Shown piece after piece: positions 31,423 to 64,000 of a DNA stretch of 64,000 nt. The DNA lies in NCBI GenBank assembly GCA_958295735.1, contig OY282369.1:2952983-3016982 (forward strand). Direction: 5' to 3'. Source of the DNA: an uncultured Candidatus Cenarchaeum sp. (GTDB taxonomy: Archaea; Thermoproteota; Nitrososphaeria; Nitrososphaerales; Nitrosopumilaceae). The notes below the pieces were generated by a model, which saw only the letters and a program-made list of their open reading frames with translations, was not told the origin of the DNA and made no database searches. Within the stretch, counting starts at the first letter, position 1. Each line of letters starts with the position of its first letter. Both the position numbers and the translations under genes were made by a program.

Positions 31423-31677
31423 ATGTCAGGGAGCGGCGCGGGAAGGGGCAGGAGCAGGCACTGCGTCGACTGCGGGGCCAGGCTGGTGTACTATCCGCGG
31501 CTGTCCAACCCGAAGGCGCCCGCGGGGGACCGCGTCCTGACGTACGCCTGCCCCGACTGCACGGCCGACTTCGGCAGGCCCAAGCTCCTCGCCGTGCGCC
31601 GGAGCCCCGAGGGTGAGCACGCCGAGACCGTCGAGGTGTCCATAACCCAGAGCGGTGTAGACTTACGTCCATCGTGA
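31423..31677 (+). CDS. Small zinc-ribbon protein, 3' end altered by a MITE
   Basis: An 84-residue protein of unknown function with two CxxC knuckles (Cys14/Cys17 in HCVDCG and Cys43/Cys46 in ACPDCT), the pattern of a zinc ribbon. The ATG at 31423 is chosen because the zinc ribbon starts just after it and the upstream open frame is low-complexity GC sequence. The last residues (GVDLRPS) are encoded by the left terminal repeat of the 92-bp element at 31655-31746. Removing the element and one copy of its flanking direct repeat gives a frame ending VSITQSD-stop, so the present C-terminus is an insertion product. It is divergent from cas4-cas1 and is not obviously part of the CRISPR system. Confidence 0.7.
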   Translation: MSGSGAGRGRSRHCVDCGARLVYYPRLSNPKAPAGDRVLTYACPDCTADFGRPKLLAVRRSPEGEHAETVEVSITQSGVDLRPS

Positions 31678-31746
31678 TCTGGGCGTGAGATCATGAGGTG
31701 GCTTGCCGTTGCTAGGCGCGGTTCCGGTTTGGACGTAAGTCTACAC
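31655..31746. mobile_element. 92-bp MITE with perfect 16-bp inverted ends
   Basis: The left end GTGTAGACTTACGTCC (31655-31670) is the exact reverse complement of the right end (31731-31746). The 8-bp direct repeat CCAGAGCG flanks both sides (31647-31654 and 31747-31754), as expected of a target-site duplication. The 60-bp core has no coding capacity, so the element must be mobilised in trans. It sits in the last codons of the zinc-ribbon gene and just upstream of the promoter of the next gene. A decayed relative lies at 39698-39789. Confidence 0.88.
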
Positions 31747-31798
31747 CCAGAGCGATTAAAAACGTTCATAAGCCACAGCCCAAGCGGCGGCGCATGTC

Positions 31799-35909: not shown

Positions 35910-36040
35910 CACTGCATTACCTTGCCTACCCCTCCCCGGCTGCCCTTATCTGCGGCATCGTCACATATTGTTGTCAAACTGGGTGGTTTTTTTTGGCCGC
36001 GCCGGGGGCGCGTGCAGGATCGCGGCGCCGCGCGGGCGGG

Positions 36041-36420
36041 AGCGGCGTCATGCAAGTAGGAGCGGCGTTATGCAAGTAGGAGCGGCGTTATGCAAGTAGG
36101 AGCGGCGTTATGCAAGTAGGAGCGGCGTTATGCAAGTAGGAGCGGCGTTATGCAAGTAGGAGCGGCCCTACGCGGGTGGGAGCGGCGTTATGCAAGTAGG
36201 AGCGGCCCTACGCGGGTGGGAGCGGCGTTATGCAAGTAGGAGCGGCCCTACGCGGGTGGGAGCGGCGTTATGCAAGTAGGAGCGGCCCTACGCGGGTGGG
36301 AGCGGCCCTACGCGGGTGGGAGCGGCCCTACGCGGGTGGGAGCGGCCCTACGCGGGTGGGAGCGGCCCTACGCGGGTGGGAGCGGCCCTACGCGGGTGGG
36401 AGCGGCCCTACGCGGGTGGG
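36041..36420. repeat. Minisatellite: 19 tandem 20-bp units, two variants
   Basis: Nineteen units of exactly 20 bp all start AGCGGC. Nine are of type A (AGCGGCGTTATGCAAGTAGG, the first with GTCATG) and ten of type B (AGCGGCCCTACGCGGGTGGG). They run as a block of A (36041-36160), then alternate B and A (36161-36280), then a block of B (36281-36420). The period is not a multiple of three and all three frames stay open, so the apparent Gly/Ala/Arg-rich proteins are not real. Confidence 0.95.
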
Positions 36421-36440
36421 AGCGGCGCGGCATCCGCCGG

Positions 36441-36565
36441 GGAGGGGCCACGGCCGCCGGGGAGGGGCCACGGCCGCCGGGGAGGGGCCACGGCCGCCGG
36501 GGAGGGGCCACGGCCGCCGGGGAGGGGCCACGGCCGCCGGGGAGGGGCCACGGCCGCCGGGGAGG
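36441..36565. repeat. Second 20-bp minisatellite
   Basis: The unit GGAGGGGCCACGGCCGCCGG is repeated six times and partly a seventh. It keeps the same 20-bp period as the adjoining array but has an unrelated sequence. A single bridging unit (36421-36440) mixes the two. Confidence 0.93.
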
Positions 36566-38610: not shown

Positions 38611-39441
38611 TCAGAGCGCGCGGCCGGTCAGGCGCTCGTACGCGGCCACGTACCGGGAGGTTATCTCGGAGATCACCCCGGCGGGGATGGCCGGGGGCGC
38701 CGGATCGCGGCCGGCCGCGCGCTCTGCCTCGAACCGCTCCCTGTGCCCGTTCTCCGAGAGCCAGTCGCGCAGCACCTGCTTGTCGTACGACTCCTGCGCC
38801 CTTCCCGGCGAGTACCCGGCCGCGGGCCAGAGCCTGAACTCGTCGGGCCCTATGGAGTCCCCCAGCACCAGCCCGCCGTCCAGGCGCCCGAACTCCAGCT
38901 TGAGGTCCGCCAGCACGAACCCCGCCCGCGCGGCCGCGCGGGACACGGCCCCGTATATCCCGAGCGATGCCGAGCGGAGCGCGTCGAACTCGCCCCCCGT
39001 GACCAGGCCGGCCCCGACGGCCCCCGCCCTGTCCACCGGGACGTCGCGCGCGGCCTTCGTCGTGGGATCGAACACGGGCGAGGGCAGCCTGGCGGCCAGC
39101 CTCGTGTCGGCGCCCCCCGGGACCAGGCCGGCGGCGGCGCCGCGCCGCAGCCTCTCGGCCAGGCTGCCGTACACGTACCCCCTCACCACGCACTCCATCG
39201 GGACCATCTCCATCCTCCTGACCCTGATCTCCGTGGCCGACACCCGCTCCACGAAGTGGCTGGGGACGCCGAGGCTACGGAACCAGTGCTCGGCGAACCC
39301 GCACAGCACCTCGCCCTTCCTCGGCACGCGCTCGGCGAACCGCACGTCGTACGCGGATATGCGGTCGCTGAACCTGAACACCAGCCCCGACGCGCCGTCC
39401 TCGTAGATGTCCTTGACCTTCCCGGACGCCAGGAACCGCAC
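38611..39441 (-). CDS. purC: SAICAR synthetase (phosphoribosylaminoimidazole-succinocarboxamide synthase)
   Basis: A 276-residue enzyme that joins CAIR and aspartate with ATP to give SAICAR, step eight of de novo purine synthesis. Visible family motifs in order: GKVKDIYE at the ATP lid, [21 protein letters not shown] (the ECVVR signature), DLKLEFG, and [11 protein letters not shown] in the active site, ending with [11 protein letters not shown]. Length is near the bacterial and archaeal norm (about 235-290). The GTG at 39441 is the only start that precedes the first motif, and a TATA-like TAGATAAC at about 39463-39470 sits 25 nt upstream, so the message is probably leaderless. It is transcribed alone, 9 kb from purSQLF. 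A damaged copy of its 3' end lies at 36674-37080. Confidence 0.95.
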
Positions 39442-39697: not shown

Positions 39698-39789
39698 GCG
39701 CGGGCTCGCGCCCGTCGCGATCCGGGCGCGGGATCGGGGGGCGGTTTGCTGCCGCCGGGCGCGGTTCCGGTTCGGACGCAAGCACACGC
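39698..39789. mobile_element. Decayed copy of the 92-bp MITE
   Basis: This stretch aligns without gaps over 92 positions to the MITE at 31655-31746, from the left end (GCGCGGGCTCGCGCCC against GTGTAGACTTACGTCC) to the shared GGCGCGGTTCCGGTT and the right end. I count about 28 differences, roughly 24 of which are T to C or A to G. The inverted ends have lost much of their match and no target duplication is left, so the copy is inert. It ends nine bases before the stop of the membrane protein at 39799. Confidence 0.8.
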
Positions 39790-48610: not shown

Positions 48611-48760
48611 GCGGCCCCGCGGCGGCCCCGCGGCGGCCGCGGGCGGGCCCACGAAAGCGGCGGCCGGGCGCGTCGCGCAGACTTGCGCCCGCCGCGATCC
48701 GGGCGCGGCCCCGCGGGCGGGCCCGCCGCGATCCGGGCGCGGCCCCGCGGGCGGGCCCGC

Positions 48761-50218
48761 CTACGGGGCGGCCGGCGCCCCGCGGCGGGGCTGCCCGGCC
48801 TTGCCCCCCGCGAACCCGGGATCGATGCCGAGCGGCGAATAGTCGCCCGTGTGGCACGTGAAGCACATGGAAGAGCGCGGGATCCCGACGGCCGCGGCGA
48901 GGTTCTCGGCGTCGTTGTACCCGAGGAAGTCGGCCCCGATGTCCGAGCGCACCTTCTCCACGACCTCCCCCTCGGACATGCCCCTGCCGCCGTCGTGCGC
49001 GGCGAGCTCCTCCCGGGACGGGAAGTCGATCCCCGCGTAGCACGGGAACCGTATCGTGGGGTACGTCACCAGCATGCTTATCCGCCGCGCGCCGGACCGC
49101 CTCAGCGCCTTTATGATGGCGCGCGAGCTGGTCCCCCTCACCAGGCTGTCGTCCACGACCACCACGTGCCGCCCTTCTATTATCTCGCGTATGGGTATTA
49201 TCCACCGGTTGATCTCCACGCGGTCGCTCTGGTGCGGCTCGATAAAGCTGCGCAGCGGCCCCTTCTTGCTGTACCTGTCCTTCAGCAGCCCCTCGTCGAA
49301 GGGGATGCCGAGCTCCTGCGCGTAGCCCAGGGCGGCCGGCCGCGCCGAGTCCGGGACGGGCACCACCAGGTCGGCGCCCCGCAGCGGGAACTTCCTGGCG
49401 AGGAACTGCCCTATCCTCTTGCGGGCCACGTACACGTTGGCGCCCTCCATCCTGCTGGACGGGTGCGCAAAGTACGTGAACTCGAAGGAGCAGTGGGCCC
49501 GCCCCGCGTCCTCCGAGAAGGACTCCGAGGCGGCCCCCGCCCCGTCCAGTTTCAGGAGCTCGCCGGGCCTGACGTTCCTGTCCAGGGAGGCCCCTATGGC
49601 CGAGAGCGCCGACGACTCGGAGGCCACCACCATGGCGCCGTCGGGCCTGGAGCCGAGCACCATCGGCCTGAAGCCCTTCGGGTCCCTGGCTGCATAGACG
49701 GCCCCCCCGTCCGACAGGAACGCAAAGCAGTACGAGCCGACCATCTCGCCCTTCAGGACGGACATGGCGGGGCCCATGCCGCCCTTTTCCTCCACCAGCG
49801 CGGCCAGCCGGCGGGCCGCCGCCAGCGTGTCGCTCGCGCTCTGCGGGGTGAAGGTGCAGCCGCCGGCCATCCCGGACAGTTCCGCGCCGTTGTTTATGGT
49901 CCCGTTGTGCGCCACGCACAGGCCCCCCACCTTCAGCGGCTGGGCGCACTCCAGGCCGCTCCCGCCCACCGTCGAATACCTGACGTGCCCGATGGCCGAG
50001 CGGGAGCGGTACTCGGCGGCCAGCCGGCGGAACTCGCGCGCCGAGTCCGAGACCAGCCCCGTCCTCCTCGCCGGCTCCTTCCCCGGCACGGCCAGCCCCC
50101 ACGCCTCCTGCCCCCTGTGCTGCAGCGCGCGCAGGGCGTCTATGGCCATCGGGACCGCGTTGGTCCCCTCCGCGCCGTATATCCCCACGACGCCGCAGTT
50201 CTCCCTGGCGCCGCCCAC
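48761..50218 (-). CDS. purF: Amidophosphoribosyltransferase (glutamine PRPP amidotransferase)
   Basis: A 485-residue enzyme for the committed step of purine synthesis, PRPP plus glutamine to phosphoribosylamine. The N-terminus MGGARENCGVVGIYG has a seven-residue propeptide before the Ntn nucleophile Cys8. The PRPP loop is VVVVDDSLVRGTSS. Cysteines in AHCSFEFTYFA, FPCYAGIDFPS and CFTCHTGDY match the four ligands of the [4Fe-4S] cluster in the Bacillus-type enzyme. The start GTG shares one base with the purL stop (TAGTG), so the genes are translationally coupled. It is the last gene of purS-purQ-purL-purF. Confidence 0.96.
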   Translation of the reverse strand: MGGARENCGVVGIYGAEGTNAVPMAIDALRALQHRGQEAWGLAVPGKEPARRTGLVSDSAREFRRLAAEYRSRSAIGHVRYSTVGGSGLECAQPLKVGGLCVAHNGTINNGAELSGMAGGCTFTPQSASDTLAAARRLAALVEEKGGMGPAMSVLKGEMVGSYCFAFLSDGGAVYAARDPKGFRPMVLGSRPDGAMVVASESSALSAIGASLDRNVRPGELLKLDGAGAASESFSEDAGRAHCSFEFTYFAHPSSRMEGANVYVARKRIGQFLARKFPLRGADLVVPVPDSARPAALGYAQELGIPFDEGLLKDRYSKKGPLRSFIEPHQSDRVEINRWIIPIREIIEGRHVVVVDDSLVRGTSSRAIIKALRRSGARRISMLVTYPTIRFPCYAGIDFPSREELAAHDGGRGMSEGEVVEKVRSDIGADFLGYNDAENLAAAVGIPRSSMCFTCHTGDYSPLGIDPGFAGGKAGQPRRGAPAAP

Positions 50219-53638: not shown

Positions 53639-56600
53639 TCACACGCAGTTGGCGACGAACGTGACGGTCTGCGATATGGTGTCGGCCTCGAGCGTGTCCA
53701 GATCCCCCAAGTTGATCCGGAAGTCGACGTCCACGCTGCCGCCCGGCGGCGTCCCGCCCGGTATCGCCGTATCCGCGGCCAGCGGGGTCGAGTCGGCCGG
53801 CCTGGGGGAGGCGCCGCCCAGGCCCACGGCCATCTCCGTGTACGAGAACGGCAGCGGTCCCGGCAGGGGGGCGCCGTCCCTGAACTGCGTCCAGTCCGTG
53901 GCGGACACGGACACCGCGGGCATCGGGCCGGTTCCTATGTTCGTCACGGTCTGCCGCGCCGGCCTGCTCGTGCTCCCCGCGGACAGCTCGGGGAGGGCGA
54001 GCGCCGACTTTTCCAGATCTATCCCGCACGCGTCCAGGCCCCGGAGCAGCTCTGGGGCCCGCGCCCACTCCGCCGATGCGTCGGACACGGACCATATGCC
54101 GTACGTCACGGGCAGCCGCAGGTCGCCGTTCCCGTCCATGCCCGTGCGGCCGAGCGGGCCGCCTTCCAAGTTGGCCGCTCCCGCTATATTGCCCCCCGCG
54201 AGGGACGGGTCGCCCCCGGCCCCCACCAGGGCGCCGCCCAGCGCGCGGACGGCCTCGTACGCGGCGTAGGCCGGCGTGGCAGACGCGGCGGGGACCAGCG
54301 GGGCCGCGATGCGGTCGATGTAGTCCGTCATGCTATTGCGCTCCACGGCGAACTGGACGGCGGACAGCCGCGTATCGCGGGCCAGCTGTATAGCCGCCGC
54401 ATCGGCCGTTATGGCGGGGGACGCGGCCACCCCGCTCCCCGCGCCGGCCCCCGCGCCGCCGACGGCGAACCATGCCGACCTCTCCCGTATGGCGCCGCCC
54501 GCCGGCGCGCTGCCGGCCATCGCCGCGAGCTCCGCATCCGAGCCCATATACACGACGGCGACGCTCCTGGCCGTCCCGCTCCCGGCGGCCGCCGCCACGG
54601 CGGTTTCTACGGGCGCGGCCGCCGCGCCGCCGCCGCCCGCAACGAACTCTACGGGCTCGCCGAAGGATATCCCGAGCGGCCCTATGTCCGATTCCAGCGA
54701 TTCCAGCAGGCCGTAATCTGGGCCGTGCAGGCCGGCCTGCACCACGGGGACTATGGCGCCGTACCCGCCCCGCGCCACCTCCGTCGCGAGCGCCCTGGCC
54801 ATGTGCGCCGCGCCGGGCTCCATTCGGAATATGGGATCGCCCCCTACGGCAAGCGAGCGCGCCGCCGACGAGTGCGATATTATGGTGATGCCGTTCTCCG
54901 AGGCGTACCCGGCCATGCCGGCCAGCGCCGTATCGGAGGCCGGGCCCACGTACAGTGAGGGGCCGCTCCCGCCGCCGTGCGCCCCGCGGAGCGCCGCCGC
55001 GCCGGAGGCGCCCGCCGGGAGATCGTGCTCGGACACGCTGACGTAGAACTGGTAGCCGCGCTCCTCCGAGACGGCGTTGAAGGCGGCGGCCCCCAGCCTC
55101 GCCGCCCCCATGGAGGGGTCGCCGGCGCCGCGCGCGAACACGCCCACCTGCACGGGCTGCTTGCCGGCCTGCCCGGTCCCGTCGGGCCCGCCGGTGTACT
55201 TTGTGCCGGGATTCTCGACGGGGTTCCCGAAGGCGTCCGTGACGTTCGCGGACAGGTCGAATCCCACGGCGGAGCCGGCCGCGGCGGTCGTGCTCGCGTT
55301 CGCGTTCCACGATATTATCACGTTGTTCCCGAACGCGGCCGCCTCGGAGGCGCCGCCGCGGTTCCCCGCTACCGCGGCGCCGTCCACCGTGATGTTCGCG
55401 TAGTGGGAGGGGACGGCAAGCACCGGCTCCGAATAGACGGCGGCTATAGAGCTGCCGTTCAGCACGAATGCCAGCAGGAAGGTCGGGCGGTCGGGATCGC
55501 GCGCGACGTCCAGCGGCGCCCGCTCCGGCGCGTGCGCCGAGCGGCCGTCGGTGACGAAGCCGGCGGGCAGCAGCAGCGTGGTGGACTCTAGATCCGAGAA
55601 CGCGGTCGCGTCCAGCGCCGCCCGCGCCCGGTCGGACACGAGAAGCACGAAGGTCCTGTCCCCCGCGCTGCCGGACTCTACGGATATGACGTCGTCGGCG
55701 GACAGGGAGACCGAGGCATCGCCTCCCCAGCTCCGGCCGCGGATCTCGATCATTCCGGGGAACGATTCCGCGCCGGGCGCGGTCGTGGCCTCGTCGAACG
55801 TTATGACGAGCCGGCCCGCGGCGGCGCCGGCCGGCGCCAGGTTGAACGCCGCCGCGGCGAGGCGCGGGGGCGAGGTATCCGGCGCGTACGCGAGCGGTGC
55901 GTCCGACTGGCCCGGCGCGTACGAGTTGCCCGGCGCGTCCGACACGAAGGCGGCGGGCAGCTCTATGGCGGCGGATCCCAGGTCCGCCGCGTTGAGCTCT
56001 ATACGCTTGGCGCCCGTTATGTCCAGCGCGAACGTCGCGTCCCCCGCGCGTCCCGATGCCACGGAGGGAACGTCGCTGCCGGACAGCGCCACCCCCCCGC
56101 CGTCGCCTCGTATTATAATCTCCCCGGACAGCGGCGCGGCCGGCGCGGTTGCAACCGCCTCGTCAAACTCGAGGGTAAGCAGGCCGTTCTCTCCTGCAGT
56201 CAGGTCAAGCACGGCGGATGCGAGCACGGGGGCCTGGCCGTCCGCCAGCGCCTGCCGGTACGCCGTGCCGTTGCCGATGTGGTTGCCCGAGGGATCCGTC
56301 AGCGCGGCCTGGTCTATGGTCACGGTGCCGGTGGCGTCGCGCGCCGCGGGATCGCCGTCGAACTGTATGGTGTGGGTGGCGGTGCCGTTGCCCTGCAGCT
56401 CGCCGATCGGCTGGCGCGCCGTGCCGCCTATGACAATTGCGCTGTACGGCGAGCCCACGGCGTTCGCGGCTTCGCTGTAGCGTATGGTTGCCTGCAGGGG
56501 GCCGGTGATCGCGGCCGACAGAACGGTCGCGTTTGTGCCCGGGCGCGCGCCGTTGTATTCTATCAAGAACTGCGCCGCCGCGGTGTTGTTGTTTCCGCCC

Positions 56601-59600
56601 GCATCCGCGGCCACGTTTGCCGGGACGTCGACCGTCACGGTCCCGTTGGCCGAGGGCGAGACGGCAAAGGTGTACGTCGTGGCGTTGACGGCAACGAAGC
56701 TGCCCTCGTCGATGCCGGTGGCGGCTCCCGAGATCTCGATGCCGCTCGCGTTGAACCCGGTGACGGGCCTGTCGAACGTTACCGTGAAAGCGATCGGCGA
56801 CTCGCTGGTCGGGCCCGGCCCCGCGTCGGAAGTGATTGTAGGGACAGGGGGCTGGGGAGCGGCAGGGGGCGCGCCGTTGTATTCTATCAAGAACTGCGCC
56901 GCCGCGGTGTTGTTGTTTCCGCCCGCATCCGCGGCCACGTTTGCCGGGACGTCGACCGTCACGGTCCCGTTGGCCGAGGGCGAGACGGCAAAGGTGTACG
57001 TCGTGGCGTTGACGGCAACGAAGCTGCCCTCGTCGATGCCGGTGGCGGCTCCCGAGATCTCGATGCCGCTCGCGTTGAACCCGGTGACGGGCCTGTCGAA
57101 CGTTACCGTGAAAGCGATCGGCGACTCGCTGGTCGGGCCCGGCCCCGCGTCGGAAGTGATTGTAGGGACAGGGGGCTGGGGAGCGGCAGGGGGCGCGCCG
57201 TTGTATTCTATCGAGAACTGCGCCGCCGCGGTGTTGTTGTTTCCGCCCGCATCCGCGGCCACGTTTGCCGGGACGTCGACCGTCACGGTCCCGTTGGCCG
57301 AGGGCGAGACGGCAAAGGTGTACGTCTTGTTGTCGGCGGTCGCAAAGCTGCCCGCGTCGATGCCGGTGGCGGCGCCCGAGATCACGACGTCCCCGGCCTC
57401 GAACCCGGTGACGGGCCTGGTAAAGTTCACCGTGAATGCGATCGGCGGCTCGCTGGTCGGGCCCGGCCCCGCGCCGGACGTGATTGTCGGGATCAGTGCC
57501 GAGGTGTCGCGCGTTATCGAGAGCCGTTCCGCCGCGTCGTTGTCGTTGCCGGCCAGATCCCGCGCCGCGCCCGCCGGGACGTCGACCAGTATCGTGCCGT
57601 CTGACGTCAGCGCGACGACGAAGGTGTACGTCATGTTGTCGGCAGTCGTGAGGTTGCCCGCGCCGCCGTGCTCGGCGGTGCCCGTGATCGCGATGCCGCT
57701 CGCGTTGAACCCGGCGACCGTGTCGCTGAACCTCACCGTGAAGGTGATCGCCGAGGCGTTGGTCGGGCTGCCCTGATCGGCAGTGACCGTCGTGCTCGGG
57801 CCCTCGGTGTCGTACGTCACGGACAGGTCCGCCGCGGGGCTGGGGTTGCCCAGCGCATCCCGCACCGCGTTCGGGGCGACCTCGACCGTCACTGTCCCGT
57901 CCGTGGTCGGCGCGACGGTGAACGTGTACGCGGCGCCGGTGCCGTCAAAGTCGGCCACGGGGCCCGGATCGGCGTCGCCCGAGAGCGCGATGTGGGTGGC
58001 GTTGAACCCGGTGACGTTCTCGTCAAAGGTCACCGTGAAGTTGATCGGCGAAGCGTTGGTGTGGAGGCCCTGCGGGGACGCGACGGTCGGGATCGGGCCC
58101 GTCCTGTCTATCGTAATGCTCACGGTATTGGACTCGTTGCTCGGGTTCCCTGCCGCGTCCAGCACGCTGCCCGCAGGCATGGTTACCGTGAGCACGTCCC
58201 CGTCGGCCGGGCCCGTCACGTTGAACGCGTACTCTGTGTCGAATATGCTTACGGTGTGGTTGCCCCTATCGGACACGTATACGCGGCCCGCGCCGTCGGC
58301 CGCCACGCCGACCGGCCTGTTGAACGGGCCGGGGAGGTCGGCCACGTAGTTCCGGGCGGAGTCGAAGATCTTGGTCCTGTTGTTTCCCGTGTCGGCCACG
58401 TACACGTTGCCGGAACCGTCCGCCGCCACGCCGGCCGGCCTGTTGAACGGGCCGGGGAGGTCCGCGATGTAGTTCCTGTCGGGGCCGAATGCCAGGACGC
58501 GGTTGTTGTTCGTGTCGGCCACGTACACGTTGCCGGAACCGTCCACCGCCACGCCGGCCGGGAGCCTGAACGGGTTGCCTGGCGGCCCGGTGAGGTTGGC
58601 GACGGGCGCCCTTTCGGAGTCGAAGATCTGGACTACTGCCAGGGTCGTGTCGAGAACGTACACGTTGCCCGCGCCGTCGACCGCCACGGCGTCCGGCGAG
58701 TCGAGCGTGCCGGTGATGCCGGGCTGCCGGACCATGTCCGAGTCGAACACGCGGACGGTGTCGTTTATCACGTCGGTCACGTATATGTTGCCGGAACCGT
58801 CGACCGCGATGCCCCTCGGAGAGTGGAACGGGCCGGGGAGGGAGGCGGAGTGGTTCCCGGAGGAGTCGAACACCTGGACGCGGTTGTTGTTCGTGTCGGC
58901 CACGTAGATGTTGCCGGAGCCGTCCACCGCCACGCCGCTCGGGGCGTTGAATTTGGTGTTGTCCCTCAATGGCAGGAGGCCGCCAAAGCCGCCGAAGGTC
59001 GCGACGTGCTGCGGCGCCAGGCGCGGGTCCTGCACCGTCCCGGAAGAGGCGTCGATGGAAGATACATCGACGGCGGAGGCGCCCATGTCCTCGTCAAACT
59101 TGACGGTGAACGGCACCGCGTCCAAGCTGGCGGGGCCCGGCGCCGCCGCCGCGGCGATCGTCGGGGTCGGCGATGCGCCGTCGTACGTTATCCAGAACCT
59201 GGCCGCCTTTGTGCTGGGGCGGTCCAGGGCGTCCAGCGCCGCGCCGTCCGGGACGTCGACCCGCACGGTCCCGTCCGTAGATGGCTCGACGTCGAACGTG
59301 TACGTCGTGGCGCTGGCGTTTGTAAAGTTGGCCACGGGGCCCGGGTTGGCGTCGCCCGAGAGCGTGATGTTCCCTGCCGCGAACATGGTGACCGGCTTGT
59401 TGAAGGTGACCGTGAAGGAGATCGGCGATTCGCCGGTCGGGCTGGGCCGCGCGGCCGTGATTACGGGGATCGGGGCCGAGGCGTCGTATTCTATGGAGAA
59501 CCGTTCCGCCGCCGCGTTGTCGTTGCCCGCCCTGTCCTCCACCGCGCCCTCTGGAATGTCGACCTGTATGGTCCCGTCGGCCGTCGGCGAGACGCCGAAC

Positions 59601-62600
59601 GTGTACGCCGTGGCGTTGAGCACGGCAAGGCCGTCCACGCCGCCGTGTGTGGCGTTGCCCGAGAGCACGATGTCCCCTACCTCGAACCCGTCGACCGGCT
59701 CGCGGAAGTCCACCTCAAATACGATCCGCGAGGCGTCGGTCGGGCTGGACTGCGCGGCCGAGATGATCGGGGTGGGCCCCGTCCTGTCTATTGTAATGCT
59801 CGCGGTGTTGGATTCCACGTTGCCGTTTCCGGCGGTGTCCCGCACGCGGCCCGCCTGCATGCTTACGTTGAGCACCTGCTCGTCGGCCGGATCTACCACG
59901 TCAAAGGCGTACGCGGGAACGAACGCCTGGACGGTGTGGTTGCGGTTGTCTACCACGTACACGCTGCCCGTGGAGTTGTCGACCGCGATGCCGTTCGGGA
60001 GGACGAACGTGCCGGGGAGGGCGGCCACGTGTTCTCTGTCAGGGCCGAATATCTGGACGGTGCCGTTGCCCCCGTTTACCACGTATACGTTGCCAAAGGC
60101 GTCGGACGCCATGCCGCTTGGGCTGTCGAACGGGCCGGGGAGGGCGGCCACGTGGTTCCCGGCGGAGTCGAACACCTGGACGGTGCCGTTGCCCTGCATT
60201 GCCACGTATACTTTGCCCGCGCCGTCGGCCGCCACGGCGCCTGGAAATGCGTCGGGCACGCTGGCGAAGAGGCTGCCTTCGGGGGCCCGGGTGGCGGAGT
60301 CGAAGATCAGGACGGTCCCTAGGCCCAAGTCGGACACGTATACTTTGCCCGCTGTGCCGTCGACCGCCACGCCTTGCAGAAAGTTGAACGGGTCGGCGGG
60401 AACGAGATCGGCAGTGTAGTTACCGTCGGAGTCGAATACCTGGACGGTACCGTTGCCCGAGTTTGCCGCGTATATGTTGCCCGCGCCGTCGATCGCCACG
60501 CCGATAGTGTTGTTGAGTGGGCCGGGGAGGGAGGCGGCATAGTTCCCGTCGGAGTCGAATACCTGGACGCGGCTGCTAGTCCCGGTGGGCGTGTCTGACA
60601 CGTATATGCTACCCGCGCTGTCGATCGCGACGGCGCTAGGAGTTATGAACTGGCCGGCTTCCGTTCCTTGGCTGCCGATGTACGCATCGAGTTTCGGGAG
60701 CGCGCGCAGGTTCTCCACACTCCCCGATGTGACGTTGATGTCCGAGTCGTCGAAGGTGGAGGCGTTTATGCCCTTGCTGAACTCCAGCGTGAACGGCACT
60801 ATACTCAGGCTCGCGGGGCCGGTCGCCGTAGTGGCGAACGTCGGCGTCAGTGCGTCGCGCGTTATCGAGAGCCGTTCCGCCGCGTCGTTGTCGTTGCCGG
60901 CCAGATCACGCGCCGCGCCCGCCGGGACGTCGACCAGTATCGTGCCGTCGGACGTCGGCGCGACGACGAAGGTGTACGTCATGTTGTCGGCAGTCGTGAG
61001 GTTGCCCGCGCCGCCGTGCTCGGCGGTGCCCGTGATCGCGATGCCGCTCGCGTTGAACCCGGCGACCGTGTCGCTGAACCTCACCGTGAAGGTGATCGCC
61101 GAGGCGTTGGTCGGGCTGCCCTGATCGGCAGTGACCGTCGTGCTCGGGCCCTCGGTGTCGTACGTCACGGACAGGTCCGCCGCGGGGCTGGGGTTGCCCA
61201 GCGCATCCCGCACCGCGTTCGGGGCGACCTCGACCGTCACTGTCCCGTCCGTGGTCGGCGCGACGGTGAACGTGTACGCGGCGCCGGTGCCGTCAAAGTC
61301 GGCCACGGGGCCCGGATCGGCGTCGCCCGAGAGCGCGATGTGGGTGGCGTTGAACCCGGTGACGTTCTCGTCAAAGGTCACCGTGAAGTTGATCGGCGAA
61401 GCGTTGGTGTGGAGGCCCTGCGGGGACGCGACGGTCGGGATCGGGCCCGTGTTGTCGTACGTTATGGAAAAGCTCGCCGCCGTGTTGTTGCTCCCGTCCG
61501 CATCCCGCGCCACGTTTGCCGGGACGTCGACGAGCAGCGTCCCGTCGGTCGTGGGCGAGATGGCAAAGGTGTACGTCCTGTTGTCGGCTGTTGCAAAGCT
61601 GCCCTCGTCGATGCCGGAGGCGATGCCCGAGATCGCGACGTCCGTGGCCCCGAACCCGGTGACGGGCTTCGTAAAGTTCACCGTGAATCTGATCGGCGAG
61701 ACGTTGGTCGGGTCGGGCTGCGCGGACGTGATTGTCGGGATCGGGGGAGCGGCGGGGAGCGCGCCGTTGTATTCTATCGAGAACTGCGCCGCCGCGGTAT
61801 TGTTGTTTCCGCCCGCATCCGCGGCCACGTTTGCCGGGACGTCGACCGTCACGGTTCCGTTGGCCGGGGGCGAGACGGCAAAGGTGTACGTCGTGGCGTT
61901 GACGGGATCGAAGCTGCCCTCGTCGATGCCGGAGGCGATGCCCGAGATCTCGATCTCGGTTGCCACGAACCCGGTGACGTTTTCGCTGAAGGTGACCGTG
62001 AACCCGATCGGCGACTCGCTGGTCGGGTCGGACTGCGCGTCGGACGTGATTGTCGGGACCGGGGCGGTGTCGCGCGTTATCAAGAGCCGTTCCGCCGCGT
62101 CATTGTCGTTGCCGGCCAGATCCCGCGCCGCGCCCGCCGGGACGTCGACCAGTATCGTGCCGTCGGACGTCGGCGCGACGACGAAGGTGTACGTCATGTT
62201 GTCGGCAGTCGCAAAGTCGCCCGCGCCGCCGTGCTCGGCGGTGCCCGTGATCGCGATGCCGCTCGCGTTGAACCCGGCGACCGTGTCGCTGAACCTCACC
62301 GTGAAGGTGATCGCCGAGGCGCTGGTCGGGCTGCCCTGATCGGCAGTGACCGTCGTGCTCGGGCCCTCGGTGTCGTACGTCACGGACAGGTCCGCCGCGA
62401 AGCTGGGGTTGCCCAGCGCATCCTCCACCGCGCCCGCGGCGACGCGGACGGTCACTGTCCCGTCCCTCGCCGGCATTGTGGAGAACGCGTACGCGGCGCC
62501 GCTGCCGCTAAAGTCTGCCACGGGGCCCGGATCGGCGTCGCCCGAGAGCGCGATGGCGCTGGCGTTGAACCCGGTGACGGGCTCGTCGAAGGTCACCGTG

Positions 62601-64000
62601 AAGTTGATCGTCGGGGCGTTGGTGTGGAGGCCTTGCAGGGACGCGACGGTCGGGATCGGCCCGGTGGCTATGGCGATGCTCACGGTATTGGACTCGGCGT
62701 TCGGGTTCCCCGCCGCGTCCAGCACGCGGCCGGCCGGCACGCTCACGGTGAGGTTCTGCCCGTCGGCCGGATCCTCCACGCTGAACTCGTACGCGGCATC
62801 GTATATCATGACGCGGTCGCGCAGCGTGTCGGCCACGTATACTGTGCCCGAGGAGGCGTCGACCGCGACGCCGTACGGATCGCCGTACCCGTCGGGGAGG
62901 TCGGCGACGTGGGCGCGGGTGGTGGAGTTGAAGATCTTGACGCGGTCGGGTTGCCCCTCCGCCACGTATCCCTCCGCCACGTATATGGCGCCCGAGGGGC
63001 CGTCGGCCGCGACGGCGAGCGGCTTGGTGAGGCCGGTGATGTTGCCGATAAGGTGCAGGGAGGAGTCGAAGATCTGGACGCGGCTGCGGAACGTGTCGGC
63101 CACGTATATGTGGCCCGTGGAGGCATCGACCGCGACGCCGACCGGGCGGTCAAATTCGCCGGGCAGGTCGGCGACGTAGTTCCGGGAGGAGTCAAACACA
63201 CGGACGGTGTGGTCGTTCCAGTTAGCCACGTATATGCGGCCCTCGCCGTCGACCGCGACGTCGATCGGGCCGCTGAATGGGCCGCGGAGATCGGCGACGT
63301 GGTTCCCGTCGGAGTCGAATATTTGGACGGTGCTGTTGCCAGAGTTCGCCACGTATATGCGGCCGGCTGCGTCGACCTCCACGCCCCACGGGCTGCTGAA
63401 CGGGCCGGGCAGGTCGGCGAGGCGGTTCCCGGAGGAATCGAACACCCGGACGGCATTGTTGTCGCTGCTTGCCACGTAGATGGTGCCCGAAAAGCCGTCG
63501 ACCGCCACGTCGCGCGGCCTGCTTAACTCGCCGGCATCTCTGGTGATGGTCTGGTTGAAATGCAGCGCCGCGCGAAAGCCCTGCACCGCGCCGGACGAGA
63601 CTTTGATGTCGGACGCGGCGAGGGTGGCGGCGTCCACGGCCTCGCTGAACCTCATGGTGAACGGCACCGATCGCAGGTTGGCCGGGCCGGACACCGTCGA
63701 GGCGATCGCGGGGGTCGGCCCCGCGCCGTCGCTCCTTATCGAGAACCGGGCCGCCTCGCTGGGGTTGCCCGCGGCATCCTCGGCCGCGCCGGAGGCGATG
63801 CCGACCGTGACTATTCCGTCCCCCGCGGGCGAGACGTCGAAGGCATAGACGGAATCGCTGCTGTTCGTGAGGTTGGCCGCGCCGCCGGCGGGCGCGGCAT
63901 CGCCCGACACGGCGACGTCCGTCAGGTCGAACCCGGTGACGTCCTCCCCGAAGTTCACGCGGAAGTTTATGGTGGAGGCGTTGGCAGGGCCCGCCCGGGT
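53639..64000 (-). CDS. Giant Ig-like/NHL/periplasmic-binding-like surface protein, N-terminus outside window
   Basis: A single open frame of 3,453 visible residues, still open at the window edge. From N to C: Ig-like modules of about 100 residues (SPI-FTV-F--PVTGF-ASDI, then TYTFAVSP-ADGTVTVDVPA, then D-AGN-N-AA) alternate with three NHL propellers at about 62790-63560, 59900-60680 and 58220-58990, with blades like GVAVDGSGNIYVADT and VQVFDS. A run of near-identical Ig modules lies at 56550-57500. Diverse beta modules follow, and the last 450 residues (about 53900-55170) look like a type-1 periplasmic binding domain: VQVGVFARG, IISHSSAA, FRMEPGAAHMARAL, AIVPVVQAG and TPAYAAYEAVRAL. Many N-x-S/T sites fit an exported glycoprotein. 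No C-terminal anchor is seen (ends TFVANCV). A likely role is adhesion or ligand capture at the cell surface; that is inference. Confidence 0.85.
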   Translation of the reverse strand, partial: TRAGPANASTINFRVNFGEDVTGFDLTDVAVSGDAAPAGGAANLTNSSDSVYAFDVSPAGDGIVTVGIASGAAEDAAGNPSEAARFSIRSDGAGPTPAIASTVSGPANLRSVPFTMRFSEAVDAATLAASDIKVSSGAVQGFRAALHFNQTITRDAGELSRPRDVAVDGFSGTIYVASSDNNAVRVFDSSGNRLADLPGPFSSPWGVEVDAAGRIYVANSGNSTVQIFDSDGNHVADLRGPFSGPIDVAVDGEGRIYVANWNDHTVRVFDSSRNYVADLPGEFDRPVGVAVDASTGHIYVADTFRSRVQIFDSSLHLIGNITGLTKPLAVAADGPSGAIYVAEGYVAEGQPDRVKIFNSTTRAHVADLPDGYGDPYGVAVDASSGTVYVADTLRDRVMIYDAAYEFSVEDPADGQNLTVSVPAGRVLDAAGNPNAESNTVSIAIATGPIPTVASLQGLHTNAPTINFTVTFDEPVTGFNASAIALSGDADPGPVADFSGSGAAYAFSTMPARDGTVTVRVAAGAVEDALGNPSFAADLSVTYDTEGPSTTVTADQGSPTSASAITFTVRFSDTVAGFNASGIAITGTAEHGGAGDFATADNMTYTFVVAPTSDGTILVDVPAGAARDLAGNDNDAAERLLITRDTAPVPTITSDAQSDPTSESPIGFTVTFSENVTGFVATEIEISGIASGIDEGSFDPVNATTYTFAVSPPANGTVTVDVPANVAADAGGNNNTAAAQFSIEYNGALPAAPPIPTITSAQPDPTNVSPIRFTVNFTKPVTGFGATDVAISGIASGIDEGSFATADNRTYTFAISPTTDGTLLVDVPANVARDADGSNNTAASFSITYDNTGPIPTVASPQGLHTNASPINFTVTFDENVTGFNATHIALSGDADPGPVADFDGTGAAYTFTVAPTTDGTVTVEVAPNAVRDALGNPSPAADLSVTYDTEGPSTTVTADQGSPTNASAITFTVRFSDTVAGFNASGIAITGTAEHGGAGNLTTADNMTYTFVVAPTSDGTILVDVPAGAARDLAGNDNDAAERLSITRDALTPTFATTATGPASLSIVPFTLEFSKGINASTFDDSDINVTSGSVENLRALPKLDAYIGSQGTEAGQFITPSAVAIDSAGSIYVSDTPTGTSSRVQVFDSDGNYAASLPGPLNNTIGVAIDGAGNIYAANSGNGTVQVFDSDGNYTADLVPADPFNFLQGVAVDGTAGKVYVSDLGLGTVLIFDSATRAPEGSLFASVPDAFPGAVAADGAGKVYVAMQGNGTVQVFDSAGNHVAALPGPFDSPSGMASDAFGNVYVVNGGNGTVQIFGPDREHVAALPGTFVLPNGIAVDNSTGSVYVVDNRNHTVQAFVPAYAFDVVDPADEQVLNVSMQAGRVRDTAGNGNVESNTASITIDRTGPTPIISAAQSSPTDASRIVFEVDFREPVDGFEVGDIVLSGNATHGGVDGLAVLNATAYTFGVSPTADGTIQVDIPEGAVEDRAGNDNAAAERFSIEYDASAPIPVITAARPSPTGESPISFTVTFNKPVTMFAAGNITLSGDANPGPVANFTNASATTYTFDVEPSTDGTVRVDVPDGAALDALDRPSTKAARFWITYDGASPTPTIAAAAAPGPASLDAVPFTVKFDEDMGASAVDVSSIDASSGTVQDPRLAPQHVATFGGFGGLLPLRDNTKFNAPSGVAVDGSGNIYVADTNNNRVQVFDSSGNHSASLPGPFHSPRGIAVDGSGNIYVTDVINDTVRVFDSDMVRQPGITGTLDSPDAVAVDGAGNVYVLDTTLAVVQIFDSERAPVANLTGPPGNPFRLPAGVAVDGSGNVYVADTNNNRVLAFGPDRNYIADLPGPFNRPAGVAADGSGNVYVADTGNNRTKIFDSARNYVADLPGPFNRPVGVAADGAGRVYVSDRGNHTVSIFDTEYAFNVTGPADGDVLTVTMPAGSVLDAAGNPSNESNTVSITIDRTGPIPTVASPQGLHTNASPINFTVTFDENVTGFNATHIALSGDADPGPVADFDGTGAAYTFTVAPTTDGTVTVEVAPNAVRDALGNPSPAADLSVTYDTEGPSTTVTADQGSPTNASAITFTVRFSDTVAGFNASGIAITGTAEHGGAGNLTTADNMTYTFVVALTSDGTILVDVPAGAARDLAGNDNDAAERLSITRDTSALIPTITSGAGPGPTSEPPIAFTVNFTRPVTGFEAGDVVISGAATGIDAGSFATADNKTYTFAVSPSANGTVTVDVPANVAADAGGNNNTAAAQFSIEYNGAPPAAPQPPVPTITSDAGPGPTSESPIAFTVTFDRPVTGFNASGIEISGAATGIDEGSFVAVNATTYTFAVSPSANGTVTVDVPANVAADAGGNNNTAAAQFLIEYNGAPPAAPQPPVPTITSDAGPGPTSESPIAFTVTFDRPVTGFNASGIEISGAATGIDEGSFVAVNATTYTFAVSPSANGTVTVDVPANVAADAGGNNNTAAAQFLIEYNGARPGTNATVLSAAITGPLQATIRYSEAANAVGSPYSAIVIGGTARQPIGELQGNGTATHTIQFDGDPAARDATGTVTIDQAALTDPSGNHIGNGTAYRQALADGQAPVLASAVLDLTAGENGLLTLEFDEAVATAPAAPLSGEIIIRGDGGGVALSGSDVPSVASGRAGDATFALDITGAKRIELNAADLGSAAIELPAAFVSDAPGNSYAPGQSDAPLAYAPDTSPPRLAAAAFNLAPAGAAAGRLVITFDEATTAPGAESFPGMIEIRGRSWGGDASVSLSADDVISVESGSAGDRTFVLLVSDRARAALDATAFSDLESTTLLLPAGFVTDGRSAHAPERAPLDVARDPDRPTFLLAFVLNGSSIAAVYSEPVLAVPSHYANITVDGAAVAGNRGGASEAAAFGNNVIISWNANASTTAAAGSAVGFDLSANVTDAFGNPVENPGTKYTGGPDGTGQAGKQPVQVGVFARGAGDPSMGAARLGAAAFNAVSEERGYQFYVSVSEHDLPAGASGAAALRGAHGGGSGPSLYVGPASDTALAGMAGYASENGITIISHSSAARSLAVGGDPIFRMEPGAAHMARALATEVARGGYGAIVPVVQAGLHGPDYGLLESLESDIGPLGISFGEPVEFVAGGGGAAAAPVETAVAAAAGSGTARSVAVVYMGSDAELAAMAGSAPAGGAIRERSAWFAVGGAGAGAGSGVAASPAITADAAAIQLARDTRLSAVQFAVERNSMTDYIDRIAAPLVPAASATPAYAAYEAVRALGGALVGAGGDPSLAGGNIAGAANLEGGPLGRTGMDGNGDLRLPVTYGIWSVSDASAEWARAPELLRGLDACGIDLEKSALALPELSAGSTSRPARQTVTNIGTGPMPAVSVSATDWTQFRDGAPLPGPLPFSYTEMAVGLGGASPRPADSTPLAADTAIPGGTPPGGSVDVDFRINLGDLDTLEADTISQTVTFVANCV
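56551..57520 (-). repeat. Three 324-bp tandem repeats inside the giant gene
   Basis: The segment beginning CGTTGTATTCTATC recurs at 56551, 56875 and 57199. The first two units (108 codons each) are almost identical; the third diverges in its last third. Each encodes one Ig-like module. Such identity shows recent expansion or gene conversion. Confidence 0.93.
57508..58104 (-). repeat. About 597-bp long-range repeat, copy 1 (with 60855-61451)
   Basis: This pair of Ig-like modules is nearly identical to 60855-61451 at an offset of 3,347 bases, with only a few substitutions. The first module of the pair recurs again at about 62070-62400. Confidence 0.9.
60855..61451 (-). repeat. About 597-bp long-range repeat, copy 2
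   Basis: Second copy of the two-module unit described at 57508-58104. It lies on the other side of two NHL propellers, so copies are exchanged across the gene. Confidence 0.9.

Follow-up and report, generated by a model that had tools for sequence, protein, structure and literature searches.

Decay of an IS66-type MITE predominantly by A:T to G:C transitions in a GC-rich archaeal genome

Why does a 92-bp insertion between purC and a neighbouring open reading frame differ from an intact relative 8 kb away almost only by A:T to G:C changes? We addressed this question in the window (the whole 64,000-nucleotide stretch analysed, positions 2,952,983-3,016,982) and in further sequence of the same genome (G000), which consists of one contig of 3,166,131 bases. 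The features concerned are listed below.

31647..31654, no strand: left target-site duplication CCAGAGCG, flanking the fresh MITE copy (boundary test)
31655..31746, + strand: fresh MITE copy, 55% GC, with perfect 17-bp inverted terminal repeats
31747..31754, no strand: right target-site duplication CCAGAGCG, flanking the fresh MITE copy (boundary test)
38611..39441, - strand: purC (SAICAR synthetase), neighbour gene (PF01259, E 2.3e-58)
39698..39789, + strand: decayed MITE copy, 79% GC, flanked by purC and by the 3' end of a 188-aa open reading frame
48675..48766, + strand: probable third copy, less certain, rearranged and strongly GC-enriched, with the left half recognisable and part of that half duplicated

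The ungapped alignment of the fresh copy with the decayed copy over 92 bp showed an identity of 64/92. The initial annotation had put the differences at about 28, roughly 24 of them T>C or A>G, and our recount returned the same figures: from the fresh to the decayed copy there were 15 T>C, 9 A>G, 2 C>T, 1 T>G and 1 C>A. With A>G and T>C expected to make up 25-45% of changes, the probability of at least 24 among 28 would be 1e-5 to 2e-11. The fresh copy belongs to a different internal subfamily than the decayed one, so a few of the 28 differences are subfamily markers. Compared with a copy of its own subfamily that has perfect terminal repeats (G000:C1:2280900), the decayed copy showed 25 differences, namely 16 T>C, 8 A>G and 1 C>A. 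The fresh copy matched it at an nhmmer E-value of 3.4e-4, and blast E-values against other decayed copies were as low as 6e-28; its own target duplication is no longer recognisable. The probable third copy was identical to it at 56/92 positions, second in the window to the fresh copy. More than 10 other copies in the genome are 96-99% identical to the fresh copy, which lies at the 3' end of a zinc-ribbon-like open reading frame and seems to give it the last codons and the stop (31647-31700). The host, a sponge-symbiont archaeon related to Cenarchaeum, lies within a family of marine Thaumarchaeota, and the nearest named relatives of its purC are from sponge-associated and marine Thaumarchaeota.

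Our main reading, to which we assign a probability of about 0.72, is that the decayed copy is one of at least 85 IS66 MITE copies that are decaying by genome-wide, mutation-level A:T>G:C transitions on both strands, with G:C>A:T very rare and, less surely, some event at A:T pairs being fixed as G:C.

The element is 92 bp long, has perfect 17-bp inverted ends (GTGTAGACTTACGTCCA) and makes 8-bp target duplications. Searching 1.09 Mb of the genome with the fresh copy located 85 sites at E<=0.01, and the same query returned no matches in the reversed or locally shuffled sequence. The sample consisted of stretches around the copies and covered about one third of the genome, so 85 copies is a lower bound. 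These stretches were picked around matches to the fresh and the decayed copy, so that the GC-rich query had an influence on their choice, and the spectrum was taken only from copies found with the A/T-rich query. The target-duplication test placed the boundaries best at 0/0, with a mean identity of 6.2/8 (50 copies) that was lowered by a one-base shift either way, and 43 of the 78 distinct copies kept a duplication of at least 7/8.

The same 17-bp ends also border 2.1-2.4-kb elements in this genome, two of which have open transposase frames (674 and 692 residues) that match DDE_Tnp_IS66. One of them (L019:4081-6394) has ends identical to those of the MITE, and its 674-aa frame matches PF03050 at 1e-20. 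Since its ends are common to transposase-bearing IS66 elements, we regard the element as an IS66-driven MITE, which was presumably mobilised in trans, to judge from the shared ends, and whose 92 bp are too short for a transposase gene. In its DDE_Tnp_IS66 transposase, matched inverted ends and 8-bp target duplications the system is like other IS66-family insertion sequences and their derived MITEs, and like such MITEs it is a short, internally deleted relative at high copy number. The element itself is therefore ordinary; what sets it apart is its particular ends and that the family was not found in the 20 relatives searched. A plasmid search with the element gave no match, and a single stretch in all viral contigs was identical to the terminal repeat over 17 bp. 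A second IS66 family in the genome has the ends GTGTGGACTCACGTCCA on both sides, so that a few copies of the MITE may have inherited some of their changes at positions 5 and 10.

We aligned the copies and tabulated the substitution types, with W for A or T and S for G or C. In the terminal repeats (34 sites, 78 distinct copies, 150 arms) there were 365 W>S transitions, split into 187 A>G and 178 T>C, and 6 S>W transitions; these are counts per copy and not per event, and part of the changes are shared by descent. The per-site transition rate was 0.270 for W>S and 0.005 for S>W, a ratio of about 54:1. The other changes in these arms were 9 W>S and 9 S>W transversions, many of them from indel-shifted arms, with 2 W>W and 24 S>S. 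Arms with at most 4 changes showed 177 W>S transitions, 0 S>W, 1 W>W, 2 S>S and no other change. The whole-element spectrum, with perfect-ended copies as ancestors, agreed with that of the terminal repeats. The possibility that other copies would show unbiased changes, which would have told against the initial annotation, was thus not borne out in the 1.09 Mb sampled. The arms changed independently, with no paired-arm co-change of the kind that hairpin selection or arm-to-arm conversion would give, and there was no consistent strand asymmetry by genome position.

An independent family showed the same direction. The IS66 fragment L030 (82% GC) compared with the intact L019 gave 126 W>S and 9 S>W transitions, with 8 W>S and 10 S>W transversions. 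Other IS66 pairs showed a weaker bias (W>S:S>W of 95:32, 91:25 and 66:28, and 11:11 for the short pair L047-L063), as is expected when both copies have aged. All-against-all repeats were set aside as evidence, being unpolarised and mostly coding paralogues, with 52-62% W/S transitions.

Other repeats were also noted in the window. A CRISPR array (1036-28998) holds 391 repeats of 36 nt (GCTTCAATGGGGCCGCAACATGAGAGTTGCGGAAAG), 390 of them identical and a degenerate one at the left end, and is hence uninformative as a mutation record. Its spacer GC is 0.64 at the left end, presumably the oldest, and declines to 0.575 at the right end (rho -0.16, p 0.002). Protein-coding repeats of 300 nt and 123 nt are arranged in long arrays at 56546-63990, some pairs being 97-100% identical, and GC-rich DNA at 35942-36500 contains a tandem repeat with a 20-nt unit that is present about 19 times or more.

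The direction of change was read from several observations. Intact transposase-coding IS66 elements and near-identical young copies (8/8 target duplications) have the A/T-richer matched ends; the changes fall on A/T sites of the A/T-rich form, and its G/C sites almost never vary; and target-duplication identity is lower in copies that have gained more W>S changes (rho -0.36, p 0.0014). C>T decay of a GC-rich ancestor could not have left these G/C sites near-invariant. The reverse polarity, with the GC-rich form ancestral, had been named beforehand as the result that would overturn the interpretation, and these observations run against it. A related account holds that the GC-rich copies make up an old subfamily descended from a separate GC-rich master and are no decay products of the A/T-rich form; it can point to the existence of internal subfamilies and to a terminal-repeat variant with two matching W>S changes at both ends on the autonomous elements L031 and L047. 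We consider it extremely improbable: the intermediates are continuous, the subsets of changed sites differ between copies, the two arms change independently, no copy or element with matched, fully GC-rich ends was found, and the invariant G/C sites of the A/T form are incompatible with C>T decay from such a master.

The composition of the genome at large shifts the same way. The sampled sequence is 70.5% GC, and conserved genes have GC1/2/3 of 0.65/0.48/0.91. At four-fold sites GC is 0.95, compared with 0.76 in the same genes of the congener G001 (the one same-genus genome drawn, 2,045,086 bp). Past stop codons GC reaches 0.78 at +20 to +39 compared with about 0.69 within genes, whereas the congener shows the reverse trend (0.54 after stops, 0.58 within genes). 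The rough neutral equilibrium from all terminal-repeat arms, ignoring multiple hits, is 0.277/(0.277+0.0125) or about 0.96 GC, near the observed four-fold value. As a rough statement, unneeded DNA in this genome drifts toward about 96% GC.

The rate of change depended on sequence context. In the MITE the N-T-N contexts changed most were GTA (0.48), CTA (0.35) and GTG (0.31), and those changed least were CTT (0.03), TTT (0.04) and ATC (0.02); T after G or before A was most changed and sites within A/T runs least, and the IS66 elements showed a similar order. Such a pattern is similar to that of adenine deamination and to that of replication errors left uncorrected (5'-NAC). Both GATC sites of the MITE persist in eroded copies, the one at 39698-39789 included, and ATC-context sites in the MITE, mostly the GATCs, were changed in 4/225. 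In the IS66 elements GATC was changed in 3/88, compared with 22/78 for CATG and 25/92 for GTAC. Other ATC sites there were also low (10/102), and part of the immunity of GATC may be plain context. In DNA of at least 80% GC, GATC was the commonest tetramer of its class (5.72/kb, compared with 2.52 for GATG or CATC, 1.40 for GTAC and 1.30 for CATG), and the congener showed no GATC enrichment. GATC thus keeps its A and T more than like sites do in the MITE, in IS66 and in bulk GC-rich DNA. A gene for a Dam/DpnM-like methylase is present in the genome (E 1.5e-59 to 2dpm); most relatives have Dam-like genes too and show no such effect at GATC. Dam-type methylation as a shield at GATC is our hypothesis.

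If gene conversion or selection for GC were at work, A>C and T>G should be favoured along with A>G and T>C. Transversions per site were 9/1350 W>S and 9/1200 S>W in the arms and 9/2008 and 17/2405 in gap-free copies, and with the L030 counts they showed no clear GC bias, which, on small counts, inclines toward mutation rather than conversion. The initial annotation had left mutation and conversion side by side as the source of a GC-ward bias in non-functional DNA; the copy spectrum supports such a bias, and the transversions incline the choice to mutation. We infer that the force is mutational, rather than selection or GC-biased gene conversion. GC-rich prokaryotes are usually explained by conversion or selection that preferentially fixes W>S changes under an ordinary mutation spectrum (PMC2936535), and the shift of both four-fold sites and intergenic DNA toward GC would fit such an account. 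Part of such an effect on transversions could be masked by an AT-biased transversion input together with the low transversion count, and in less decayed IS66 pairs W>S transversions were somewhat commoner per site than S>W (small counts). Even so we find this account unlikely, given that the MITE and L030 transversions are balanced and that dead 92-bp insertions are poor targets, on which selection is implausible.

We are less sure of the mechanism than of the spectrum, and each step below is put forward conditionally. Some event affecting A:T pairs would be fixed as G:C. Our tentative first choice, given a mutational cause, is that adenine is deaminated to hypoxanthine and escapes repair, and that Dam-type N6-methylation shields the adenines of GATC; deamination is ranked first because N6-methylation would block it. 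Hypoxanthine leads to AT>GC, and archaeal repair of it can use AlkA, family V UDG, EndoV, EndoQ or NucS (PMC8438529). EndoV was not found in this genome or its congener, and NucS was not found in this genome; EndoV is also absent in 8 of the other 19 relatives and NucS in most relatives, some of them AT-rich, so absence is insufficient as the cause. An AlkA-like glycosylase is present, and there are two UDGs, the same copy number as in relatives. With the HhH-GPD profile, the OGG1-like glycosylase of the congener (L209) was not found in this genome; its loss was rejected as the cause, since it would give G>T and not A>G. The second choice, also short of an even chance under a mutational cause, is that T.dGTP and A.dCTP replication errors go uncorrected and G.T mismatches are resolved toward G.C, and the remaining share would go to a polymerase or nucleotide-pool bias of another kind. 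Defective PolB proofreading was rejected, the FDIE, YNGDDFD and YxxxD motifs being intact in L252.

A T:G-mismatch endonuclease such as Vsr might instead repair every G.T to G.C, so that A:T errors become G:C and G:C errors are erased. This would fit a spectrum of transitions only, with W>S up and S>W down. The genome has three Vsr matches, with at least one full-length frame; Vsr is also present in the congener and in 0 of the other 19 relatives first drawn, NucS is absent, and the most changed context here, A before C, is likewise at the top in repair-deficient P. aeruginosa. In a wider draw, however, 33 of 201 genomes of the order carry Vsr, and the 14 sampled span 27% to 63% GC, so that its presence is not tied to high GC. 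In both genomes the neighbour of Vsr is a C5 cytosine methyltransferase, and a GHKL-type ATPase-like open reading frame lies near (L206:5465-7429 and L208:5662-7171); a C5-methylase neighbour is the usual setting of Vsr. The immunity of GATC would also be left unexplained, and we hold this proposal to be improbable.

PF00383 genes number 13 in this genome, compared with 0-2 in each of 20 relatives: one is dCMP-deaminase-like and twelve are relatives of AvcD-type dCTP deaminases (three scanned). All three of these hit PADLOC dCTPase with E-values no higher than 5e-117, the first of them at E 1e-123. Some of the paralogues, which include L017:15625-17121, L058:8463-9986, L024:12221-14965, L066:9619-11340 and L185-L192, begin beside IS66 or MITE ends. 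The twelve could cause the bias if their targets were the nucleotide pools or adenine in DNA, but the known members convert dC nucleotides to dU (PMC10511110), and loss of dCTP should favour G:C>A:T, which makes this very improbable. The initial annotation had suggested looking for deaminase or repair genes that could favour the change; Vsr, the AvcD-type genes and the EndoV and NucS gaps came to light, and none of them alone explains the bias.

Returning to the mutational reading, its strongest form is doubtful, although possible: that one dominant process, either adenine deamination blocked by Dam or G.T always resolved to G.C, turns neutral A:T into G:C almost unidirectionally, with an equilibrium near 96-98% GC. 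In bacteria an AT-directed mutation bias has been reported to be universal, and GC-rich genomes have been ascribed to selection or biased conversion (PMC2936535). Hershberg and Petrov likewise read the neutral direction from weakly selected DNA; the direction here is the opposite one, and in an archaeon. In mismatch-repair-deficient P. aeruginosa 98.8% of mutations were transitions, with A:T>G:C exceeding G:C>A:T (per-site 2941 and 1652, about 1.8:1) and A before C hottest (PMC4702332); the spectrum here is similarly made up of nearly all transitions, but its per-site bias is about 54:1 in the terminal repeats. RIP and repeat-directed mutation also pile up one transition type in repeats. Here the transition is the opposite one to RIP, strand-symmetric and also seen at four-fold gene sites, and the symmetry and four-fold GC indicate that it is not repeat-directed. 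The initial description of the bias as opposite to the usual bacterial one and to RIP therefore holds.

A near-unidirectional bias, if true, would be the most extreme GC-ward mutation bias known to us. The MITE and IS66 copies provide a ready mutation record with a known ancestor, and the immunity of GATC gives a specific clue to the chemistry. For sponge-associated Thaumarchaeota, the same host group, the passages on composition in PMC6697440, PMC7848895 and PMC6790972 report elevated GC (47-67%), state that the mechanism needs investigation and give no spectrum; this 70.5% GC sample supplies one. Why sponge-symbiont Thaumarchaeota are GC-rich, a question left open in PMC6697440, becomes directly testable.
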